Assembly (NCBI RefSeq): GCF_000426225.1
Contig: NZ_AUEY01000007.1
Location: 1 to 64,000 of the forward strand
Source: Desulforegula conservatrix Mb1Pa
GTDB taxonomy: Bacteria; Desulfobacterota; Desulfobacteria; Desulfobacterales; Desulforegulaceae
Length of the DNA stretch: 64,000 bases
Direction: 5' to 3'
Shown in pieces: positions 26,962-45,003 of this stretch; positions within the stretch are counted from its first letter, which is position 1; each line of letters begins with the position of its first letter. The notes below the pieces were generated by a model that saw only the letters and a list, made by a program, of their open reading frames with translations, was not told the DNA's origin and made no database searches. The translations under genes were made by a program, and so were the position numbers.

Positions 26962-27010
26962 TAAAGTTTTTACGGAGCTTTTTTCAAAAAGCGACTCGCC
27001 GAAGGCTCTC
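26962..27010 (-). repeat. Second palindromic repeat family copy
   Basis: Reverse copy: AAAGTTTTTACGGAGC, TTTTTTCAAAAAGCGACTC, then CCGAAGGC. It lies in the gap between the sulfatase stop and the maturase start and may terminate or attenuate transcription there. Confidence 0.7.
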
Positions 27011-33602: not shown

Positions 33603-34511
33603 TCAGATACTAAGAAGAAAATGGTTTATCAAATCAGATGTTTTTTCTGGCTCGTCCTCAAAAAGATAGTGGCCTGCTGATTTAAAGAAATGTGCTTCCT
33701 TGTTAGGGAATCTTCTTGTCCATTCATTGAAATAGTCTGTATCAAAAACAAAATCATGCTCTCCCCACAGAATCTGCATGGGCTTGTCAGAAAGCTTATG
33801 AAGATTGTCATCTGCCCATTTCACAAGGCTAAAGCTTGGATGTGACTCATCAAGAGGAATATCCTGAACAAATTTATATGTAGCGACTCGATTTTCAATA
33901 CATGAATAAGGAGCAATCAATCCTGACTTAATTTTTGAGGATAGCGGCTTTTGGGGAGCCATATATAAGGCAGAACCGGCAAAAATATTAAAGCCGAGAA
34001 CAGCTGGTTTTGAGAAAGCTTTAATGTTTCTAAGAATTTTTAGTCTAAGTGGAAGCTGCTTTGTGCCTGGAGGAAGAAAGCCTGATGTGTTTGTAACAGT
34101 AATGCTCGCAATCCTGTTCATATTTCTTAAGGCAAAAAGGCTGCCGATCATTCCACCCCAGTCGTGAACAATGAGGTGTATTTTTTCTTTCAGGCCGAGC
34201 TTTTCAATTAATGTCTCAATATCATTGACTCTGTTTTCAAGACTGTAAGGATAAGCCTTTGCCGGAGGTTTTTCTGAAAGACCACATCCAATATGATCGG
34301 GAACTATTGCTCTGAAGCCCTTTGGAAGATTTTGGATTATATTCCTGAAATAAAAAGACCAGGTGGGATTTCCGTGCAGCATTAGAACAGGTTCACCAAA
34401 GCCCTCGTCAATATAATGCATTTCAAATCCGTTGATCTTTTGGTAATTCGGGCTGAATGGATATATATCCCTGAATGATTCAGTATTAACCCTGCGTCCG
34501 TATTTTTTCAT
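33603..34511 (-). CDS. oleB: OleB-like alpha/beta hydrolase (haloalkane dehalogenase superfamily)
   Basis: 302 residues. The oxyanion motif HGNPTWS (46-52), the nucleophile elbow HDWGG with Asp117, and the C-terminal SAGHYLFEDEP (catalytic His) match the haloalkane dehalogenase/OleB group. In olefin biosynthesis OleB removes CO2 from a beta-lactone to give the alkene. The gene lies 85 bases downstream of an OleA-like enzyme on the same strand, which is the reason for preferring OleB over a dehalogenase or epoxide hydrolase. The OleC ligase and OleD reductase are not in the window. A repeat separates the genes, and a strong terminator follows. Confidence 0.75.
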   Translation of the reverse strand: MKKYGRRVNTESFRDIYPFSPNYQKINGFEMHYIDEGFGEPVLMLHGNPTWSFYFRNIIQNLPKGFRAIVPDHIGCGLSEKPPAKAYPYSLENRVNDIETLIEKLGLKEKIHLIVHDWGGMIGSLFALRNMNRIASITVTNTSGFLPPGTKQLPLRLKILRNIKAFSKPAVLGFNIFAGSALYMAPQKPLSSKIKSGLIAPYSCIENRVATYKFVQDIPLDESHPSFSLVKWADDNLHKLSDKPMQILWGEHDFVFDTDYFNEWTRRFPNKEAHFFKSAGHYLFEDEPEKTSDLINHFLLSI

Positions 34512-34517
34512 TAAGGA

Positions 34518-34567
34518 TTTGCCTCCGACGGGTCGCTTTTTTAAAAAAAGCTCCGCAAAAAACTTAT
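34518..34567 (-). repeat. Second palindromic repeat family copy, between oleA and oleB
   Basis: GCCTCCGACGGGTCGC, TTTTTTAAAAAAAGCTCCGC, AAAAAACTT. On the minus strand it would put an AT-rich hairpin between the two genes of one operon and could lower expression of the second. Confidence 0.7.
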
Positions 34568-34595
34568 TATTTTTAAATCAAATTATTATATATGG

Positions 34596-35639
34596 CTACC
34601 AGCGAACCCCAAGCATCATACAATTAAGACCGCTTCCAATTCCAAGAAAACATACAAGATCACCAGGATTCAGGAAATCCCTTTCTTCTGCTATGGCTGC
34701 CGTGATTGGAAGAGAAACAGTTCCAATATTACCTAAAAAAGGATAGGTCGGGAAATCCTTATCAGTTGAAATGCCTATGGATTCGAGAATTGTTTTCTGG
34801 TGAGCTGCTCCTACCTGATGGCAGATAACCTTGTCAGGCTGACTGTCCTTTAATCCGATATTTTTTTTAAGAGCCTGATAAGTATCAATTCCAAGCTTTA
34901 CACCGTTATGAAGAACAGAGATGGAATCTGTTCGCATCTGCATTCTGTATCCGTCCAGGGAGAGATTTTTGTACCCCCAGACGCAAAGATCATGATGCCT
35001 CACGCTGTTTTTGACAGCTCCTCCGAGAAGCACCCTTCTCTTTTCAGCGCTAAGATCCTTATGGCAGACAATCACGGCAATCGCTCCTGAGCCGCCTGTA
35101 AGTGTCGCTATCGTCTGCCTGAAATTCTCCATGTCAGGATTCCTGTTCAGGCTTTCAATGGTAATGTCCATGATTCTTTTTGAAGTCTCGCAGGATAAAA
35201 CCATCCCTGCCTTTATCTGCCCGGCTTCTATGGCAGTTGCAATCTGGACTATGCCATTAAGGACTCCGAGACAGGCATTGGTTATGTCAAAAACCATGGC
35301 ATCCTGCCCTATCCCAAGACCGTCAGCCACTGCACAGGCCGTAGCAGGTTCAAGATTTTCACGACACACAGCCGCATAAATTAGCATCTCAATATCTGAG
35401 GGTTTCAAATCTGTTTTTCCAAAGGCATTTTTCCCGGCCATGACAGCGCCTCTGCTCACAGGGAAATCCATACCCCAGTATCTGCGCTCATGAATGCCTG
35501 TCAGGGCTTCAAGCTGGCCTTTTTTGAATTTAAGCTTTTGATAAACAGGTTCAATCAGTTCTTCGATATCATCGGATGTCCAGACATTTGTTGGAAGCTC
35601 ATATCCGAATGCTTCTATGCAGACATTATTGAATTTCAT
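34596..35639 (-). CDS. oleA: OleA-like thiolase-fold condensing enzyme
   Basis: 347 residues of the FabH-like thiolase fold. The catalytic Cys is in NACLG (Cys123). Glu97 in LEPATAC lies 26 residues before it, the same spacing as the catalytic Glu117 and Cys143 of Xanthomonas OleA, which joins two acyl-CoAs head to head to a beta-keto acid. His in ICHQVGAAHQ and Asn in FLGNIGTV complete the site. FabH-type enzymes lack this Glu. Start: ATG with domain-consistent N-terminus. Followed by the oleB-like gene and preceded, 61 bases away, by a FUSC-like gene, likely one operon. Substrates could be polyunsaturated acyl chains made with the upstream megaenzyme; this is inference. Confidence 0.8.
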   Translation of the reverse strand: MKFNNVCIEAFGYELPTNVWTSDDIEELIEPVYQKLKFKKGQLEALTGIHERRYWGMDFPVSRGAVMAGKNAFGKTDLKPSDIEMLIYAAVCRENLEPATACAVADGLGIGQDAMVFDITNACLGVLNGIVQIATAIEAGQIKAGMVLSCETSKRIMDITIESLNRNPDMENFRQTIATLTGGSGAIAVIVCHKDLSAEKRRVLLGGAVKNSVRHHDLCVWGYKNLSLDGYRMQMRTDSISVLHNGVKLGIDTYQALKKNIGLKDSQPDKVICHQVGAAHQKTILESIGISTDKDFPTYPFLGNIGTVSLPITAAIAEERDFLNPGDLVCFLGIGSGLNCMMLGVRW

Positions 35640-35700
35640 GGATGACCTTTTTTATATTGTTTTAGGATATAAACTGCTGAAACGTTGATGGTTATACTGC

Positions 35701-36249
35701 TTATTTCTCAATTGATTCAGACACACTATTCCTGCCGTTTCTCATCTTTTCAAACCTGCTGAAAATATAAGTGATTATAATTGCTATTAAACACCCTACT
35801 ATAACACATCCCATTCTTTCAAAACCCGATGCCCAGCTGCTCCGTTCTTTTTCCTGAATGAGCACAATTACAAGCGCAGCAAGGGCTGATCTGGTCGCGC
35901 TTTCAAGGCCAAGCATGTAACAGATCAGGATATTCACAATCACAGCTATGCAAAGCACGACAAGCACAGGAACATGCTCAAGAAACAAAAAAGCTAATAG
36001 CCCGACGACCGAACCTATAACATTGGCCTTCATTCTGTCCATTGCCAACCTGTTGGAATCGCTGTGGTCAGGTGCAAGTACAAGAAGAACTGAAATTATG
36101 CTCCAGTAAAATTCGTGCTGGGGGACAAGCACATATGGAATATAGCAGACTGAAACACCTATCAGACATTTCAGAATGTACTGAAATTCCAGATTCGTGA
36201 AAGCGAGTCTGTTTTTTATATTAACAATGATATTTTTTGATTCAATCAT
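35701..36249 (-). CDS. FUSC-like inner-membrane protein
   Basis: 182 residues with about five membrane helices (YILKCLIGVSVCYIPYVLV, FYWSIISVLLVLAP, ANVIGSVVGLLAFLFL, VLVVLCIAVIVNILICYML, CVIVGCLIAIIITYIF). The RMKANVIGSVVG and SATRSALAALVIVL patches resemble the FUSC/aromatic acid exporter fold, but only the membrane half is present, about a third of the full-length exporters. It lies 61 bases before the OleA-like gene and 238 bases after the megaenzyme stop. A role in exporting the product or in membrane handling is possible from position only. Confidence 0.65.
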   Translation of the reverse strand: MIESKNIIVNIKNRLAFTNLEFQYILKCLIGVSVCYIPYVLVPQHEFYWSIISVLLVLAPDHSDSNRLAMDRMKANVIGSVVGLLAFLFLEHVPVLVVLCIAVIVNILICYMLGLESATRSALAALVIVLIQEKERSSWASGFERMGCVIVGCLIAIIITYIFSRFEKMRNGRNSVSESIEK

Positions 36250-36321
36250 TTATATAGGCTCTGTTCCCTTTATAAATGGGAACTTTCACTGTCCAAATAA
36301 CTGCTTCATATTTTAAGTAAA

Positions 36322-36370
36322 AAGCCTCCGGCGGGTCGCTTTTTGAAAAAAGCTTCGCAAAAACTTTTTG
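36322..36370 (-). repeat. Second palindromic repeat family copy
   Basis: AAGCCTCCGGCGGGTCGC, TTTTTGAAAAAAGCTTCGC, AAAAACTTTTT. It lies about 60 bases left of the perfect hairpin at 36448-36477; the same spacing to a similar hairpin occurs at 60491/60608. Confidence 0.75.
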
Positions 36371-36447
36371 GTAATAATGCAGAGTAGAGGCAATCATTTA
36401 TAGATAGCTGCACTTCAAATATATAAACCACAAAGTTTTTGAGGGGT

Positions 36448-36477
36448 CTGGGGAACTTTTTTCAAAAAGTTCCCCAG
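36448..36477. terminator. Perfect 14-bp hairpin after the PUFA-synthase-type gene
   Basis: CTGGGGAACTTTTT (36448-36461) and AAAAAGTTCCCCAG (36464-36477), 10 bases beyond the stop of the 7-kb gene. No clean T-tract on either strand follows the stem, but the T/A-rich inner stem is terminator-like. It separates the megaenzyme from the FUSC/oleA/oleB genes, so these are probably separate transcripts. Confidence 0.7.
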
Positions 36478-36487
36478 GTTATTTTCT

Positions 36488-39400
36488 TCAATCCTTAACC
36501 AGCCTGACACCGAAATTTTCCATCTTGTATATACACAGACCATCCACAAAAAGATATCCGTTTGCTTTTATTAAAGGAACAGGATCATTTTCTATTTTGG
36601 TTATATAGCCATGAATCTTCACAAGTTTGCAATGTCCGAGTATCTGGCCTCTGTATGTCCAGGTGTGCTCATCATCAAGAAGATCTGAAAATCTGGCTTT
36701 TCCTTCAAGTTCAGGCCAGATTTTAAAAGCAGCAAATTTAATGAGCTGAATAAATGATTCCAGGCCAAGCGAACCAGGACAGACAGGATCTCCATGAAAA
36801 TGAGCCTTAAAGAACCATTCCTCAGGATCAACGTCCTTTTCGCCAAGGATTATGCCAAGACCTTCTGGCCCGCAGCCCGGAACATAAAGCCCCCTGTCAA
36901 ACATTCTCATTGTCTTGGCAGGAAGAGCCATTCCTGAAAAAGAAATAAAATTTGAATCTTCAGGAAATAAAGGCGCAAACTCAGGCAAATTTTCCAGAAT
37001 ATTTCCTTCTATGTCTTTTTCTTCAGGCATCCATACGGTTTCACCGGTTATTCCTGCCTGGGCGGCAAGGGCAGCTTTTGTGAAAAAACCGAATGAAGTC
37101 GAGCCTGAATATACCATTTCTCCATTTTCAAGAACTTCCATGTCAAAATTCTCGATTATCATTCCGCCAGCTTTGGACGCTCTTGTAAGCCTGCTTCTCA
37201 TGGTCAGTCTTGAATCATTTGAAAAAACTTCCCTGTGCTGGGTCGCTGTTCCTCCAAGATTTCTGAAACGAAGATCCTCTTTCCCATGCAGTGCCGAGCC
37301 CATATAAGCCGCGAGCCATCCGCATGGCTGAAGAGCTGCCTCGAGAAGAAATGAAAACGGCATAGTTTTTGATCTGTTTGCCCTGAAATACCAGGAATCT
37401 GGCTTGATGTCGAACTCAGCAGTTATCCATCCGGCAGGTTTAAGTTCCCACTGGGTAACATCTGCCTCGACAACCCTGTCCATGCACAGATAAGGAGGCT
37501 TTGGAAGCCTTGCAATGAATCTTTGGGGATTCATGTCAGAATCCCAAGGCCTGTATTTTTCACCAAAAGCCCTTGAAGGCTCTCCCATGCAGCATTCCAT
37601 GATCTGATCATTTGTAAATACTTGGGGCTTGGCATTTGGTTGAATATTTTTCACGTCCCAGATGTTTTCTATCTCATTCTTTGTAACGCCGTAGATTTTC
37701 ATGGTCATACTTCTGAAAGAAACTATGCGTCTGCCGTCGGCGTACATTAGAGCATCTGCGATCACAAAAGGCTCGGGATCATAACCAATCTCTTTTATAT
37801 CAACCTCATAAAGAACCTTTTTTGTTTCAGTGGTAACAGGCCCCCGACATTTAAGAACACTACCGACATCTGTAACAGGGCCATAAAAAACATCTTCTTT
37901 TTCAGTTATCCAGCCCATTCTGAGCGTAAGGATACGCAAGGTGTGACAGCAGCATTCATACATGAGCGTGCCGGGCATAACCATGTCATCCACAAAATGA
38001 CATGTGAGAAACCAGGCATCAGGAACAATGTCTGCTTCGGCAAGAATTCGGCCAAGACCGTATCTTCCGCCTTTAGGATCTATTTCAAGAACCCTGTCAA
38101 CCAGCTTCATTTTGCCTGATGGAAGGGTAAGAGATTTTGAAAGAAATTTATTTTTGAAATCAATCCCGAATGCTGCTTCAAGATTTCCATTTCTTAGTGC
38201 CTCGATCTGATTTTCATCAAGGCTCTCTTTTTTCATTGGAACAAGAGGCCTGTAATCAGGAGAGATATTTCCAGGCAAAGGCTTAAGATCTTCGGCAGTT
38301 AATACGATTCCGCCGGAATTGTTAACCTCTTCAGGAGTGAAAAAACCTGCGCATCCGTTTTTCATGGTTATCATCAGCTCATTGCCGATGTATCCGTCAA
38401 AATTGAAAAAGAACATCCATGTATCGCCCTGATGTATGAATTTTTCGATTCTGATGTCGTAGCGGATTGTATCTCCTGGCTGGGGAAAAGGTCTGTGAAA
38501 TTGGGCTTTGGCGTCAAGTAGACGATATGAGCGCTCACCTTTTACCCTTAAGTCAACTCCAAGATATGAACAAAGGAAAAGATCTGCCTGACCTGCTTCA
38601 ATGGAAATGCAAGCTGGCGCCCTTCCCCCGTCAAGATACCATGCTCCTGGAAGAACATCATGCTCAGTGACGCATCTTCCGCTCTTCATGGAATTTTTCT
38701 CGCCGTCCACAAGCACAATTCTGTCCACAAGCATGAGAGGTTCGTCTGGAAGTCTTACCCTTGCCTTGTAAGTATCGAGAGGCGCAAATTCTGGTCCCAG
38801 AACTTTTTCAGCAGAACCAATGGCAAATTCCATACACATGTCACGGTCGTATGCTGGCGGAGTTTTGTCTATACCAGCCTCACTAAAATTAGCTTTAGTC
38901 GATTTTTTATCATTTTCAAGGAGCGGATTATGCACCTTCACACCCGAAGCGGTGGGGAGAACGTTTAAGGAACTGGCTATTTTGAATGAATCATCAAATA
39001 AATCATCAGCCGAAGATGCAATGAGATCAGCCCTAAGATTCACAGCATCGGCCATGCTTTTCTGGAGCTTCATTGAAAAATCAAGAAACTCTGAATGAGC
39101 CTCTGCCGCAGCCCTGCTGTTTTCGGCTATCATTGAGGCTATTTCAGCGACAGGAGATATTTCTTCTTCAAGACTTTCTCCATACCCCATGCCGTCATCA
39201 GCAATGAAAACTGCGCCAGAATAATTATCTGAAAAATTATTGGCGTTTACCGTAAGCTCTGGAGCTGGTTTATCTTTCGTAATATTAGCAGTTCTGGGTT
39301 GAGGTATTATTTCAGCTGCTGAGCCTAAATCTAAATCAGAATCTGTTTTTGAATAATCTGATGATTTCTCCTTTTTTTTGTAGAATTTCTTCAGATCTTC

Positions 39401-42400
39401 ACTTGATGGCAGAATATGTCCAGACGTGGATATTTTTATTGGCTTTGCACCGCATTTTTTATCTTCTATATACCGCTCTTTTTTTAATGAAAAAAGCTTG
39501 TCAATATCCGTAAAAATCCCAAGTGCGGCAAGTCTTGCCAGAAGTTTCAGAAAAGTCAGAGTCCCATCTTCTCCTTTCACACAAGCCGCTGCCGCAATAT
39601 GATTTTTTTCAGAAAGAATCTGGCCTATCATTCTTGTACATGAAGCACCGGGTCCAGCTTCGATAAAAAATCTAACGCCATCTTCATAAGCCTGATTTAT
39701 GACCTTTGTATAATCAAAGCCATGAAGAGCCTGACCAAGAATGGAGTCTGCTGCGCTGTCTTTTGTTATCTCATGGCTTTTCCCGAGAAAGCAGCTGTAA
39801 TAAGTGACTGTCGGATCTGGATTAACATCAAAAACATGAAGATTCCTGTATGCTTCGGCTGAAAGGCTGGCGGCGTCGCAGTGAACTGTCACGACTCCTT
39901 CCATAAAGCCTGCGTCTGTCTTTAGATTTGCAATCACAGACTCAATCTGCGGCTTATGTCCACCAATTACGCACTGAGTAGAAGTGTTTACAAGAAGGAG
40001 CCTTGTGAGCGGATATTTTCCAATTTCCTTAAGAGTTTCCTCAGAAGGTTTATTCACAAGAGCGACAACCCACTCAAAATCAGCTTCTTCAGGAATATTC
40101 CATGCTTTTCTTGTTGAAAGACATTTTCCTGCAAGTTCTGTTTTAAAAAGCGGGGACGCCTGCATCCTTGAGAACATTTCACCAGGATCTGGCCAAGCTC
40201 CTGTTGAAAAATTAGCCGCTGACTCGCCAAGACTATAGCCAATTACAGCTTCAGGTTTTATCCCGAATCCTGCAAGAAGCTTTGTCATTACATAGCCATG
40301 AATGACCTGACCGGCTATCATTTTTTCCATATCAGAAGACGCATTCTTTGCTGCGTCTTCCTCCCATCCCGGCCCCCAGTCTGATCTGTAAGGGATAAAG
40401 ACTTCGGGCGAAAACCAGCTTTTTATGCATGAATTATCAAGGTCAAGTTTTTCAAGAACAAAAGGCCATGCTGCCCCGGTTTCCCTGCCCATTCCAGGAT
40501 AATGGGTTCCTGAGCCTGGATAAACAAAACAGATTTTACCTTTAGGTTTTTCAGGGTAATAAAAAACGCTCTCAGGCCCTGAAATGCTTAACTGGGTTTT
40601 CTCTTTTACGGCCTTAAAAGCTTGGGCTATAAGGGTCAAAAGCTTTTCTTTGACTGAAGAAACAAAAACCAGGATTGACGAGTTTTTTGTTATTCTGCCA
40701 GTATTTGAGCTCCATATTTCAGCTGCTTCAGACATTAATGAATTATTACCTGAAATAAATCTTTCAAAATCACCAAGTTTTTCAAGAAGCAGACTCTCGC
40801 TTGGTGCTGAAATCGCAAAAAATCCGTGGTTCGGCCTGAATGACTGGAATATGTCCTTCTTTTTCTGATATTCGGAAAGAATTGCCACACTGCTTTGATT
40901 GTCATGGGTGTCACAAAATACTGCTGCATGGCGCTTTTTATCATTGGCATTTTTGAACCAGAAAGAAGGCGCAGCAGGCAGATGATATCTTTCACCCAAA
41001 TTTTGACCAGGCTTTAATAATAAGGGAGCTGGTGGAAGAACGTCATTTTTAAGGCTCATTGCAGTTTTTACAATTGAAACAATACCGGACGCAGCGCCTG
41101 AAAAACCTGAAACTCCGGCTACAGATCCAAGGGCTGTATGGATATTATGAAGTTTATTATCAGAAGCTTCGCCTGAAATATCATTACCAATTGCCCCAGC
41201 CAAAACTTCGCTACCCGAGCTCCGCTCAATCAAACTCAGATCAGCATGATTTATCCCGGCTTCTTTCAGGCATTTCTGCATTGAATATAATTCAGAAGCT
41301 GATGAACGGATGCCATCTATTACTGCATATACTGTATCTCCATCTTTTACGGCATCATCGAGGCGCTTCATTATTATTGCAGCCGCGCAGTCAGAAGTGG
41401 GTATATCGCCTTTTAACAGCCCGTTTCTGATGAATACGGATCTTATATCAGACGTAAAATCAACTGCACCTGCCAGAAAAGAGTCTGTTTCTCCATTTTG
41501 AAGTGACCTTACTCCTATTTCAACGGCCTTCATGCCAGACGCGGAATCGCAGGAAACACTGAAACATGGTCCGCCGAGTCTGAATTCCTTGGCAACCCTG
41601 CTTGCGATGATGCTTCCGAGTGAGCCTATTGTCCTGTTTGCGTTTAACGGAGGTGAAACAAGATTTTTAAAATCTTCAAGATCTTTTTCTGTTTGAAGCT
41701 CAAAGCCCCATTCTTTAAGGCGGTTTTCCAGATCCCATCTCAGATGATAGTTTGTGGCTTCATAATCAAACTCTATACCTATGGCTCCGCCCATTTCAGG
41801 TCTTTCTTTCCTTTCTGAAAGACCACCTGAAATCATGGCCTCTTTTGCAGCCTGGAGCATGAGAATATGCTGGGGTAGAATTTCTGGAATCTCATTTGGC
41901 GGTATATGGAATTCGCCCGGATAGGTTGAAACCTCATATAAAGGATTGCCAGTAAGAGTTTTAGAGGAAACGGCTGATATATTTTTAAATCTTTCAGGCT
42001 GAATTTTTTCTAAAGAAGAAATTCCTTTAAAAACACAGTCCCTGAACTCGTCAGTACCTTTGATTTTCCCGGCCTTGATCCCAAGACCTGTTATGGCAAT
42101 TTTGCATTTGTTTTCTTGAGGTTTATTTGCATGATTAATGGCCTTATCAGCTGAATACTCTTCAACAAGAATATGGCCGTTAATCCCTCCGAATCCGAAT
42201 GCGCTGATCGCTGCCTTTCTTGTTTGTCCGGATTTTTCCCAATTTTCAGTTTTTGTCTGAACCTTGACAAGACCTTTTTCAAGTGGACTGTCAGATGAAT
42301 GTCTTGCGTGATTAAAAGTAGGAACAAAGGATTTGTTATGAATTGAAAGAAGGGTTTTAATGAAACCTGCTGCACCAGCTGCTGTAAGCATATGGCCTGT

Positions 42401-43486
42401 GGTTGATTTTACTGCTCCGAGCCTGCATGGATTTTTTTTATACCTTCCCGCCATAATTTCTGTAAGACTTGAAAGCTCGATCTTGTCGCCAACAGGTGTT
42501 CCTGCTCCGTGGCATTCAATAAAATCAACGTCATGGGGATTCCATCCCGCGGCAGTATAAGCTGATTTCATTGCCCGCAACTGACCATTTGAATCAGGCG
42601 CGAGGAGATTTCCGCCCATATCATTTGAAAGCCCTATGCCCCTGATAACGCCAAAAATCTTGTTTCCATCCTTGATTGCATCTTCAAGCCGCTTGAGCAT
42701 TACAAGACCTGCGCCCTCACCTACCACTAGTCCGTTGGCGTCTGCATCAAAAGGTCTGCAAGTGCCTGTCGGGGAAATTGCCTGGAGCTGGGTAAAACCG
42801 ATCTGAGTATAAAGACAGTCAGGACGCGATACGCCTCCTGCAATCATGACTTTAGCCCTGCCTGACGAGAGTTCGTCACATGCAAGTTTAATGGCATAGA
42901 GAGAAGATGCGCAGGCAGCGTCAAGAGTGAGTGTATAACCGCCAATACCAAGACTTTTTGCAGTAATTGATGCGGGGAATCCTGTCACTCTGGCTTCAAG
43001 GCAGTCAATGGTGTCTGGCAAAGTAGCATCAACCGGAGTATTCATTAATCTTGAACGAATCTCAGGCCAGATAAGCTTTCCTGTAAGTTTTGAAGAACCT
43101 TCCGTGGGAAGAGCAATTGCAGCAAGTATTATTCCTGTTTCCGGTTTTTCTTCATCTTTAAGCCTGAAGTCAGTAACAAGCTGACGTGCAGCATCAAGAA
43201 CTATTTTATGGGATGGATCAAGCTTTGACAGTATTTCAGGATCAACTGAAAAACCTTCAGGAATAAATTCAAAACCTTCAATAAGCCCTGCCCGTCTTGA
43301 GCATGTCTTATCAAGCTCGTATTTATCGGACATTACGCTTTCAGGCTTTGCCAGCCATCTTGAGGCTGGAATATCTTTAATCGCGCTTCTGCCGTTTTCA
43401 AGATTTGACCAGAACTGATTCAAATTCAGAGCGTCAGGAAAGACGCATGACATACCTACAACCGCAACAGGTGAGAATTTATTCAT
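36488..43486 (-). CDS. PUFA-synthase-type megaenzyme: KS-CLF-AT-DH-DH (PfaC-like with PfaB-like AT)
   Basis: 2332 residues. KS (about 1-455): Cys near 192 in DAACASS, His in ECHGAGTPVGD and KSTTGH, all intact. Second KS-like unit (about 460-910): Cys replaced by Ser (CDSASG near 643), both His positions lost (ERSSGS; TALGSVAG), so a chain-length factor. AT (about 1010-1370): Ser near 1083 in GYSLGES, PfaB-like. A helical linker (1380-1610). Two double-hotdog dehydratases (about 1610-2000 and 2000-2332), each with one intact motif: CHFVDDMVMPG near 1828 and AHFHGDPVCPG near 2228. No ACP, KR or ER is visible, so partners must lie elsewhere. PfaC normally lacks AT, hence this is a fusion of PfaB and PfaC functions. 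The weak ribosome site (GGATTTTT) is odd for so large a gene. Confidence 0.88.
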   Translation of the reverse strand: MNKFSPVAVVGMSCVFPDALNLNQFWSNLENGRSAIKDIPASRWLAKPESVMSDKYELDKTCSRRAGLIEGFEFIPEGFSVDPEILSKLDPSHKIVLDAARQLVTDFRLKDEEKPETGIILAAIALPTEGSSKLTGKLIWPEIRSRLMNTPVDATLPDTIDCLEARVTGFPASITAKSLGIGGYTLTLDAACASSLYAIKLACDELSSGRAKVMIAGGVSRPDCLYTQIGFTQLQAISPTGTCRPFDADANGLVVGEGAGLVMLKRLEDAIKDGNKIFGVIRGIGLSNDMGGNLLAPDSNGQLRAMKSAYTAAGWNPHDVDFIECHGAGTPVGDKIELSSLTEIMAGRYKKNPCRLGAVKSTTGHMLTAAGAAGFIKTLLSIHNKSFVPTFNHARHSSDSPLEKGLVKVQTKTENWEKSGQTRKAAISAFGFGGINGHILVEEYSADKAINHANKPQENKCKIAITGLGIKAGKIKGTDEFRDCVFKGISSLEKIQPERFKNISAVSSKTLTGNPLYEVSTYPGEFHIPPNEIPEILPQHILMLQAAKEAMISGGLSERKERPEMGGAIGIEFDYEATNYHLRWDLENRLKEWGFELQTEKDLEDFKNLVSPPLNANRTIGSLGSIIASRVAKEFRLGGPCFSVSCDSASGMKAVEIGVRSLQNGETDSFLAGAVDFTSDIRSVFIRNGLLKGDIPTSDCAAAIIMKRLDDAVKDGDTVYAVIDGIRSSASELYSMQKCLKEAGINHADLSLIERSSGSEVLAGAIGNDISGEASDNKLHNIHTALGSVAGVSGFSGAASGIVSIVKTAMSLKNDVLPPAPLLLKPGQNLGERYHLPAAPSFWFKNANDKKRHAAVFCDTHDNQSSVAILSEYQKKKDIFQSFRPNHGFFAISAPSESLLLEKLGDFERFISGNNSLMSEAAEIWSSNTGRITKNSSILVFVSSVKEKLLTLIAQAFKAVKEKTQLSISGPESVFYYPEKPKGKICFVYPGSGTHYPGMGRETGAAWPFVLEKLDLDNSCIKSWFSPEVFIPYRSDWGPGWEEDAAKNASSDMEKMIAGQVIHGYVMTKLLAGFGIKPEAVIGYSLGESAANFSTGAWPDPGEMFSRMQASPLFKTELAGKCLSTRKAWNIPEEADFEWVVALVNKPSEETLKEIGKYPLTRLLLVNTSTQCVIGGHKPQIESVIANLKTDAGFMEGVVTVHCDAASLSAEAYRNLHVFDVNPDPTVTYYSCFLGKSHEITKDSAADSILGQALHGFDYTKVINQAYEDGVRFFIEAGPGASCTRMIGQILSEKNHIAAAACVKGEDGTLTFLKLLARLAALGIFTDIDKLFSLKKERYIEDKKCGAKPIKISTSGHILPSSEDLKKFYKKKEKSSDYSKTDSDLDLGSAAEIIPQPRTANITKDKPAPELTVNANNFSDNYSGAVFIADDGMGYGESLEEEISPVAEIASMIAENSRAAAEAHSEFLDFSMKLQKSMADAVNLRADLIASSADDLFDDSFKIASSLNVLPTASGVKVHNPLLENDKKSTKANFSEAGIDKTPPAYDRDMCMEFAIGSAEKVLGPEFAPLDTYKARVRLPDEPLMLVDRIVLVDGEKNSMKSGRCVTEHDVLPGAWYLDGGRAPACISIEAGQADLFLCSYLGVDLRVKGERSYRLLDAKAQFHRPFPQPGDTIRYDIRIEKFIHQGDTWMFFFNFDGYIGNELMITMKNGCAGFFTPEEVNNSGGIVLTAEDLKPLPGNISPDYRPLVPMKKESLDENQIEALRNGNLEAAFGIDFKNKFLSKSLTLPSGKMKLVDRVLEIDPKGGRYGLGRILAEADIVPDAWFLTCHFVDDMVMPGTLMYECCCHTLRILTLRMGWITEKEDVFYGPVTDVGSVLKCRGPVTTETKKVLYEVDIKEIGYDPEPFVIADALMYADGRRIVSFRSMTMKIYGVTKNEIENIWDVKNIQPNAKPQVFTNDQIMECCMGEPSRAFGEKYRPWDSDMNPQRFIARLPKPPYLCMDRVVEADVTQWELKPAGWITAEFDIKPDSWYFRANRSKTMPFSFLLEAALQPCGWLAAYMGSALHGKEDLRFRNLGGTATQHREVFSNDSRLTMRSRLTRASKAGGMIIENFDMEVLENGEMVYSGSTSFGFFTKAALAAQAGITGETVWMPEEKDIEGNILENLPEFAPLFPEDSNFISFSGMALPAKTMRMFDRGLYVPGCGPEGLGIILGEKDVDPEEWFFKAHFHGDPVCPGSLGLESFIQLIKFAAFKIWPELEGKARFSDLLDDEHTWTYRGQILGHCKLVKIHGYITKIENDPVPLIKANGYLFVDGLCIYKMENFGVRLVKD

Positions 43487-43520
43487 AAAAATCCGATATA
43501 TGTTTGGACTTCAGTCGAAC

Positions 43521-43538
43521 TGGAACCAGCATGGAACC
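43521..43538 (-). promoter_or_regulatory. Direct repeat before the megaenzyme gene
   Basis: TGGAACC at 43521-43527 and again at 43532-43538, 11 bases apart (one helical turn), 35-50 bases upstream of the ATG. It could be a regulator site, though short direct repeats occur by chance. No strong sigma-70 or sigma-54 promoter was found. The remaining 43487-43869 spacer holds only a decayed repeat copy. Confidence 0.3.
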
Positions 43539-43735
43539 GATTCTTCTGATATTGGCGATAAAATTATATGAAAATGCTTCAAAAATTTATAACTGACGTC
43601 GTGTCTACAGGCAAGAAACGCGTGATTAAAGGAAATTATTTTACATTGAGGACATTGTTATGTCGAATTACCTAAATGGATTTTGCTAATACTTGCAAAA
43701 TAAAAGCAGCTGGCAAGCTTTTGAAGGTTTCTAAA

Positions 43736-43840
43736 ATCCCGATTCCCTTCATTCCTAAGGGGCGTGTCCCGATGAAAACCGGAATCCAAAAACAGCTGAA
43801 AGTATCGCATGCCGGATCAAGTCCGGCATGACAGTAACAT
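43736..43840 (-). repeat. Decayed MITE copy, long-loop subtype
   Basis: CCCGATTCCCTTCATTCC, GGGGCGTGTCCCGATGAAAACC and the intact GCCGGATCAAGTCCGGCATGAC segment. Its outer ends are diverged. It lies in the spacer between the megaenzyme start and the patatin stop. Confidence 0.65.
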
Positions 43841-43869
43841 GACTTAATATGTTTGTCTGTTTTAAATCA

Positions 43870-45003
43870 TCACAACTGGGCGGCAATCCTTGATCCCAAG
43901 AATTTATAAACAGAAGAAGCCTTGTACTCCGGCGTGCTCTTAAGCCAAGGCGTCTGGGCTATAATTTTTTTCATATCATCATAACCATGTTCGGCTCTTT
44001 TGCTTATGGATGATCTCGAAAACTCGCAATCCTTGGTTGAGATTTCAAATTCGGGTGGGTCATAAACAACGTGTATAACGTCAAATCTGGAATCTGCCGT
44101 ATACTCTTTGATCTCTTTAAGTACAGGATCATTTTTCAGATCTTGCGGAAGAAGCTCATACACATGCCCCAGGGCTTTGGCGAGGTTATGACGTTTGGAT
44201 ATATGGACAAGGTTATGAGCGGATCTGCTTGTATACATAATATCTTTGGATCTTATTGTTACTTCATCGAGATTAGCCGGTTCTTTGCCTATGGGATTGA
44301 AAAGATCTATCATGAATACGAGGGTGTCCATAGCTGGCTTTGCGTTGAATATACCATCAACAGGAGTATTTGAAACACATCCTCCATCCCAGTAAAGATC
44401 TCCGTCAATAACAGTGCCGGGAAAACCAGGAGGCATAGACCCACTTGCCACAACATGCTCAGGCTCTATTTTCATATGAGCAGAATCAAAATATACAAGC
44501 TCTCCATCTTTAACTCTTACTGATCCAAGAATGAGCCTTGTTTTTCCGGAATTTATTCTTTTGAAATCTAAAAACTTACCAAGATTTTCAAGTATTGGAG
44601 TCGTGTCATAATAGCTTGTGGCCTCCACAGTTCCATCCTGATGAAATTGAGGCGCTGGGACTCTGGGAGTAAAAAAATTGGGCTGGCCAAAAATAAAACC
44701 TTGTAAAGACGACATCTTGTTGTGCATCACTTCCATTTTAAGGTCAGCATCCGCTAAAATTGGAACATCAGGCCATGAAATGGCTTCCCAGAATTCGTTA
44801 AGCTTTGCCAGCCTGTTTTCAGGGTCGTTTCCTGCTATTATTGCTGCCGTAAAAGCGCCTATAGATATTCCAGAAACAAGATCAGGTTTAAATCCGGCTT
44901 CATGCATGGCCTTGTAAGCCCCAATATGATAGGCGCCGAGTGATCCTCCTCCCTGGCATGCGAGGGCTATTCTTTTATAGTCGTGGGATTTATCATTTTT
45001 CAT
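43870..45003 (-). CDS. Patatin-like phospholipase (DUF3734 type)
   Basis: 377 residues. The patatin catalytic parts are present: oxyanion loop GGGSLGAYHIG (about 18-28), nucleophile Ser in GISIG (near 47), and Asp in DGDLYWDGG (near 205). The second half (KDIMYTSRSAHNLVHISKRHNL... ) is the DUF3734 extension. It releases fatty acids from lipids at the cytoplasmic membrane. An AAGGAGG ribosome site 4 bases before the ATG predicts good expression. It precedes the PUFA-synthase-type gene on the same strand, 380 bases apart; a role in freeing or supplying polyunsaturated acyl chains is plausible but not shown. Confidence 0.87.
   Translation of the reverse strand: MKNDKSHDYKRIALACQGGGSLGAYHIGAYKAMHEAGFKPDLVSGISIGAFTAAIIAGNDPENRLAKLNEFWEAISWPDVPILADADLKMEVMHNKMSSLQGFIFGQPNFFTPRVPAPQFHQDGTVEATSYYDTTPILENLGKFLDFKRINSGKTRLILGSVRVKDGELVYFDSAHMKIEPEHVVASGSMPPGFPGTVIDGDLYWDGGCVSNTPVDGIFNAKPAMDTLVFMIDLFNPIGKEPANLDEVTIRSKDIMYTSRSAHNLVHISKRHNLAKALGHVYELLPQDLKNDPVLKEIKEYTADSRFDVIHVVYDPPEFEISTKDCEFSRSSISKRAEHGYDDMKKIIAQTPWLKSTPEYKASSVYKFLGSRIAAQL

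Follow-up and report, generated by a model that had tools for sequence, protein, structure and literature searches.

The window analysed here is a stretch of 64,000 nucleotides of Desulforegula conservatrix Mb1Pa (GCF_000426225.1; contig NZ_AUEY01000007.1, positions 1 to 64,000), to which all coordinates without a contig or locus label refer. Five neighbouring genes were found on its minus strand, with ORFs and family-model matches that bear out the families proposed for them in the first-pass annotation. Together with two copies of a dispersed repeat, they are, in the direction of transcription:

43870..45003, minus strand: patatin-like phospholipase (patatin and DUF3734, from family models), a non-conserved neighbour
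36488..43486, minus strand: PfaBC fusion of 2332 aa, with KS, CLF, PfaB-type AT and two double-hotdog DH
36324..36353, minus strand: dispersed repeat copy in the gap between pfaBC and the FUSC gene
35701..36249, minus strand: FUSC/ArAE_1-like membrane protein of 182 aa, between pfaBC and oleA (Pfam FUSC_2, 58.5 bits)
34596..35639, minus strand: OleA, head-to-head condensing thiolase (OleA-type KSIII; NF006720, 456 bits, cut-off 285)
34521..34550, minus strand: dispersed repeat copy in the gap between oleA and oleB
33603..34511, minus strand: OleB, beta-lactone decarboxylase with a haloalkane-dehalogenase fold (Asp-nucleophile alpha/beta hydrolase)

The PfaBC protein contains two KS, an AT of the pfaB family (TIGR02816, in the stretch 979-1321) and four FabA-type hotdog stretches. 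Around 700 residues of its KS-CLF part align with chain 6riw_A (335 bits), which we take to be the KS-CLF of Moritella PfaC. Across the 40 full-length orthologues aligned with it, the KS residues Cys192, His326 and His365, the AT residues Ser1085 and His1202 and the DH pairs His1830/Glu1844 and His2229/Glu2243 are invariant and all of them are retained here, together with 429 of the 456 strongly conserved columns.

The genome contains one OleA and one OleB. The OleA-type model gives 456 bits for the window protein against 108 for the other KSIII of the genome, and this OleA is a full-length match to the 3row_A group that retains Cys123, Glu97, His274 and Asn304 (97/101 conserved columns). OleB has the nucleophile motif HDWGG and 65 of 67 conserved columns, and it is 44-59% identical to the gene adjoining oleA or oleC in most relatives, while the identity with other hydrolases is about 30%. 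These identities, and quick trees with a short search, weak inner support and a large separation from the other proteins, group OleA and OleB with operon-encoded Ole proteins rather than outside the Ole clades, an outcome that had been listed as a possible objection. The reading of OleB as a mere haloalkane dehalogenase is ruled out by its operon position in relatives, its identity and the tree. As judged from the alignments, the retention of catalytic residues and strongly conserved columns excludes chance as the source of these gene calls.

Gene order was compared in 57 other genomes of the same order, 50 of them with an OleA match. PfaBC matches are present in 46 of these 50; in 34 it immediately precedes oleA on the same strand, and oleC is found within about 3 kb downstream of oleA in 38. 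The 20 loci read gene by gene give pfaBC-oleA-oleB-oleC-oleD as the usual operon, and we suggest that the pfaBC-oleABCD unit is no oddity but a trait common in this Desulfobacterota order. A further 80 loci, taken from titled genome records (Desulfobacterota, Planctomycetota, Acidobacteria, Verrucomicrobia and others), were compared as well. In these, pfaBC immediately precedes oleA in 55 of the 69 loci that leave room for it, oleB immediately follows oleA in 64 of 70, and oleC lies within 3.5 kb in 48 of 57. Several of them have pfaA directly before pfaBC, and in a Candidatus Uabimicrobium locus (L155) pfaD follows oleD.

In Deltaproteobacteria, pfaBC fusions have been described as Types C and I, Type K being similar (Shulse & Allen 2011, PMC3098273). 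Of 80 genomes, 44 have such synthases together with ole genes, and the synthases were proposed as suppliers of olefin precursors (PMC3098273), so the pfaBC-fusion family and its link to ole genes have been known since 2011. Our tallies (34 from 50 in the order; clusters in Planctomycetota, Acidobacteria and others) are wider than that survey and leave the picture unchanged. The functional tie between a Pfa-type synthase and the Ole enzymes, as first proposed for this locus, is supported by a co-occurrence conserved across the order and across phyla, and by published work (PMC3098273, PMC4882568, PMC6463001).

The patatin and the membrane protein had also been taken as parts of the system. This claim fails, since no relatives of the patatin and none of the FUSC-like protein were found near ole genes in the 100 comparison loci, which rules both out as conserved parts. 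They could still belong to a lineage-specific system, handling lipid export or release, as they are contiguous with the other genes on the same strand and the FUSC gene lies between pfaBC and oleA. We regard this as quite improbable: neither gene is near ole or pfa genes in the 100 loci, the stretch after pfaBC contains a strong hairpin and a copy of the repeat, and 383 bp separate the patatin gene from pfaBC. The two are best read as neighbours, the FUSC/ArAE_1-like gene being probably an unrelated insertion.

OleC, OleD, PfaA and PfaD were reported as absent in the first-pass annotation, which holds for the window but not for the genome (178 contigs, 4.47 Mb, 96% complete), where all four were found. 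PfaA is encoded on contig C10 as a protein of 2383 aa with the architecture KS-AT-four ACP-KR-PS-DH, including four PP-binding stretches (TIGR02813, 1695 bits, cut-off 1010), so the lack of an ACP-bearing partner, another possible objection, is ruled out. Contig C83 carries the enoyl reductase PfaD (635 bits, cut-off 449), and contig C27 carries OleC (751 bits, cut-off 478), with all 132 strongly conserved columns, and OleD, whose gene overlaps the 3' end of oleC. OleD retains 73 of 76 strongly conserved columns and is 52-66% identical to the operon OleDs of relatives; its top NCBIfam matches are OleD models, yet it falls under their narrow equivalog cut-offs (415 vs 580 bits). Two PPTase genes are present, on C72 and C5, and the (F/S)NxSH motif, tied to Types A-L in PMC3098273, was seen by eye in neither of them. 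Each enzyme of the published Pfa-Ole route has a predicted gene in this genome. Since the pfa and ole genes are each internal to their contigs, their separation is real and does not reflect an assembly break.

The presence of OleC and OleD on C27 also bears on the product. Their absence from the window had led to the idea that, for want of OleC, the beta-keto acid formed by OleA decarboxylates to a ketone, and OleA without OleBCD indeed yields a 31:8 ketone in E. coli (PMC6463001). As no Pfa-Ole step is absent from the genome, and both C27 proteins are well conserved (132/132 and 73/76 columns), the ketone idea is left unsupported and we consider it extremely improbable.

We conclude that the locus is very likely (probability about 0.85), as far as genes and their conservation can tell, the pfaBC-oleA-oleB part of a Pfa-Ole pathway with its remaining genes at three other places in the genome, and that the most likely product is a polyunsaturated hydrocarbon. 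In the related system of Geobacter bemidjiensis, a tandem pfaDABC-oleABCD-pfaE cluster accompanies the production of C31:9 (Yoshida et al. 2016, PMC4882568), and OleA is the link between the Pfa and Ole pathways, being supplied in vivo with intermediates of the Pfa route (Allemann et al. 2019, PMC6463001). Assuming that the genes are expressed, one of the PPTases would activate the ACPs of PfaA (KS-AT-ACPx4-KR-DH), which would then carry the growing chain. The AT and another KS-CLF would be provided by PfaBC, together with FabA-like dehydratase/isomerase units responsible for the cis double bonds that remain, and PfaD would reduce chosen enoyl groups. OleA is expected to make a beta-keto acid from two Pfa-derived acyl chains by joining them head to head; OleD would reduce this acid, OleC would then close the beta-lactone, and its decarboxylation by OleB would give a very-long-chain polyunsaturated olefin. 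In the chain length and number of double bonds that we infer for it, this olefin probably resembles the C31:9 hydrocarbon of G. bemidjiensis and Shewanella. The species would join the anaerobic bacteria for which production of polyunsaturated very-long-chain hydrocarbons is expected.

Another explanation is that the Ole branch works on ordinary type II fatty acids and makes a saturated or monounsaturated olefin, with the Pfa enzymes producing a separate secondary lipid or membrane PUFA and the adjacency being historical. Xanthomonas OleA takes type II chains (PMC6463001), the genome has a stand-alone FabA/FabZ-type dehydratase, and three relatives (G047, G051 and G057) have oleA and oleC with no pfaBC detected. 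However, most relatives, and loci across phyla, have pfaBC immediately before oleA, and OleA in PUFA-producing species condenses exclusively a predicted Pfa-derived chain (PMC6463001), so that we find this explanation unlikely and prefer the joint Pfa-Ole pathway.

Compared with Types C and I (K being similarly configured), this Pfa-Ole pathway has in common the KS-CLF-AT-DH2 fusion, a multi-ACP PfaA and PfaD (PMC3098273). Types C, I and K as a group are likewise found in anaerobic Deltaproteobacteria whose genomes also have ole genes (PMC3098273), but here pfaA, pfaBC and pfaD are spread over three contigs. The G. bemidjiensis cluster has the same enzymes and the same pfaBC-oleA-oleB order (PMC4882568); there they form one tandem cluster, whereas here they occupy four places, with oleCD detached and the FUSC gene inserted. 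The same reactions are expected as in Shewanella, where pfaABCDE and oleABCD lead to hentriacontanonaene and OleA joins both pathways (PMC6463001), although pfaB and pfaC are separate there and fused here. As pfaBC fusions, the pfa-ole tandem cluster and the OleA link are already published, the Pfa-Ole system found here is a known one, and what differs is its scattered layout.

Apart from this gene order the locus is ordinary. An operon that normally lies in one or two pieces lies in four, with the FUSC gene between pfaBC and oleA. One of the relatives (G017) is also scattered, having oleA on a contig apart from oleB-oleC and from pfaBC, so the layout is not unique to this genome. The scattering could be functional, with oleCD and pfaA/pfaD expressed apart from pfaBC-oleAB as a switch between ketone or PUFA and olefin, and FUSC as a new accessory for moving or placing the hydrocarbon, but we give this little credence. 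The dispersed repeat (approximately GCTTTTTTCAAAAAGCGACCCGCCGGAGGC) occurs 94 times in the genome when up to 2 mismatches are allowed, against 0 for the reversed control. The copies at 36324-36353 and 34521-34550 bracket the FUSC-oleA pair and may reflect past rearrangement. As the cause of the scattering, the repeat was set aside, given 94 copies in 4.47 Mb and no mechanism demonstrated. Further copies were seen in the window at 26977-27006 and, on C83, some 220 bp past pfaD.

A second one-chain megasynthase of at least 3854 aa is encoded on the minus strand of C72 (L010:5398-16962; L193 is the whole contig). It has two NMO-type ER stretches, three KS stretches, an AT, three or four ACP repeats, a KR and a PS-DH, and possibly resembles Type S of Desulfobacterium autotrophicum. 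Being ACP-bearing, it could also feed, or compete for, chains. Downstream of it are genes for a PPTase, for a carboxyltransferase like MmdA and for a subunit like PycB/OadA. On C27, an ORF of 209 aa that weakly matches FliL (L019:10356-10985) precedes oleC on the same strand and stops 6 bp short of it, and on C83 an ORF with a phage-integrase/Xer-type domain and Mop/TOBE molybdate-binding domains (L020:10980-12101) adjoins pfaD.

A promoter scan was uninformative (35 matches vs 27 expected). In the gap between the patatin gene and pfaBC, the inverted-repeat sequence CATGCCGGACTTGATCCGGCATG (43800-43845, minus strand) looks like a repeat element. A 16-pair hairpin at 36445-36480, a few bases past the pfaBC stop, has a terminator-like score on the plus strand only.
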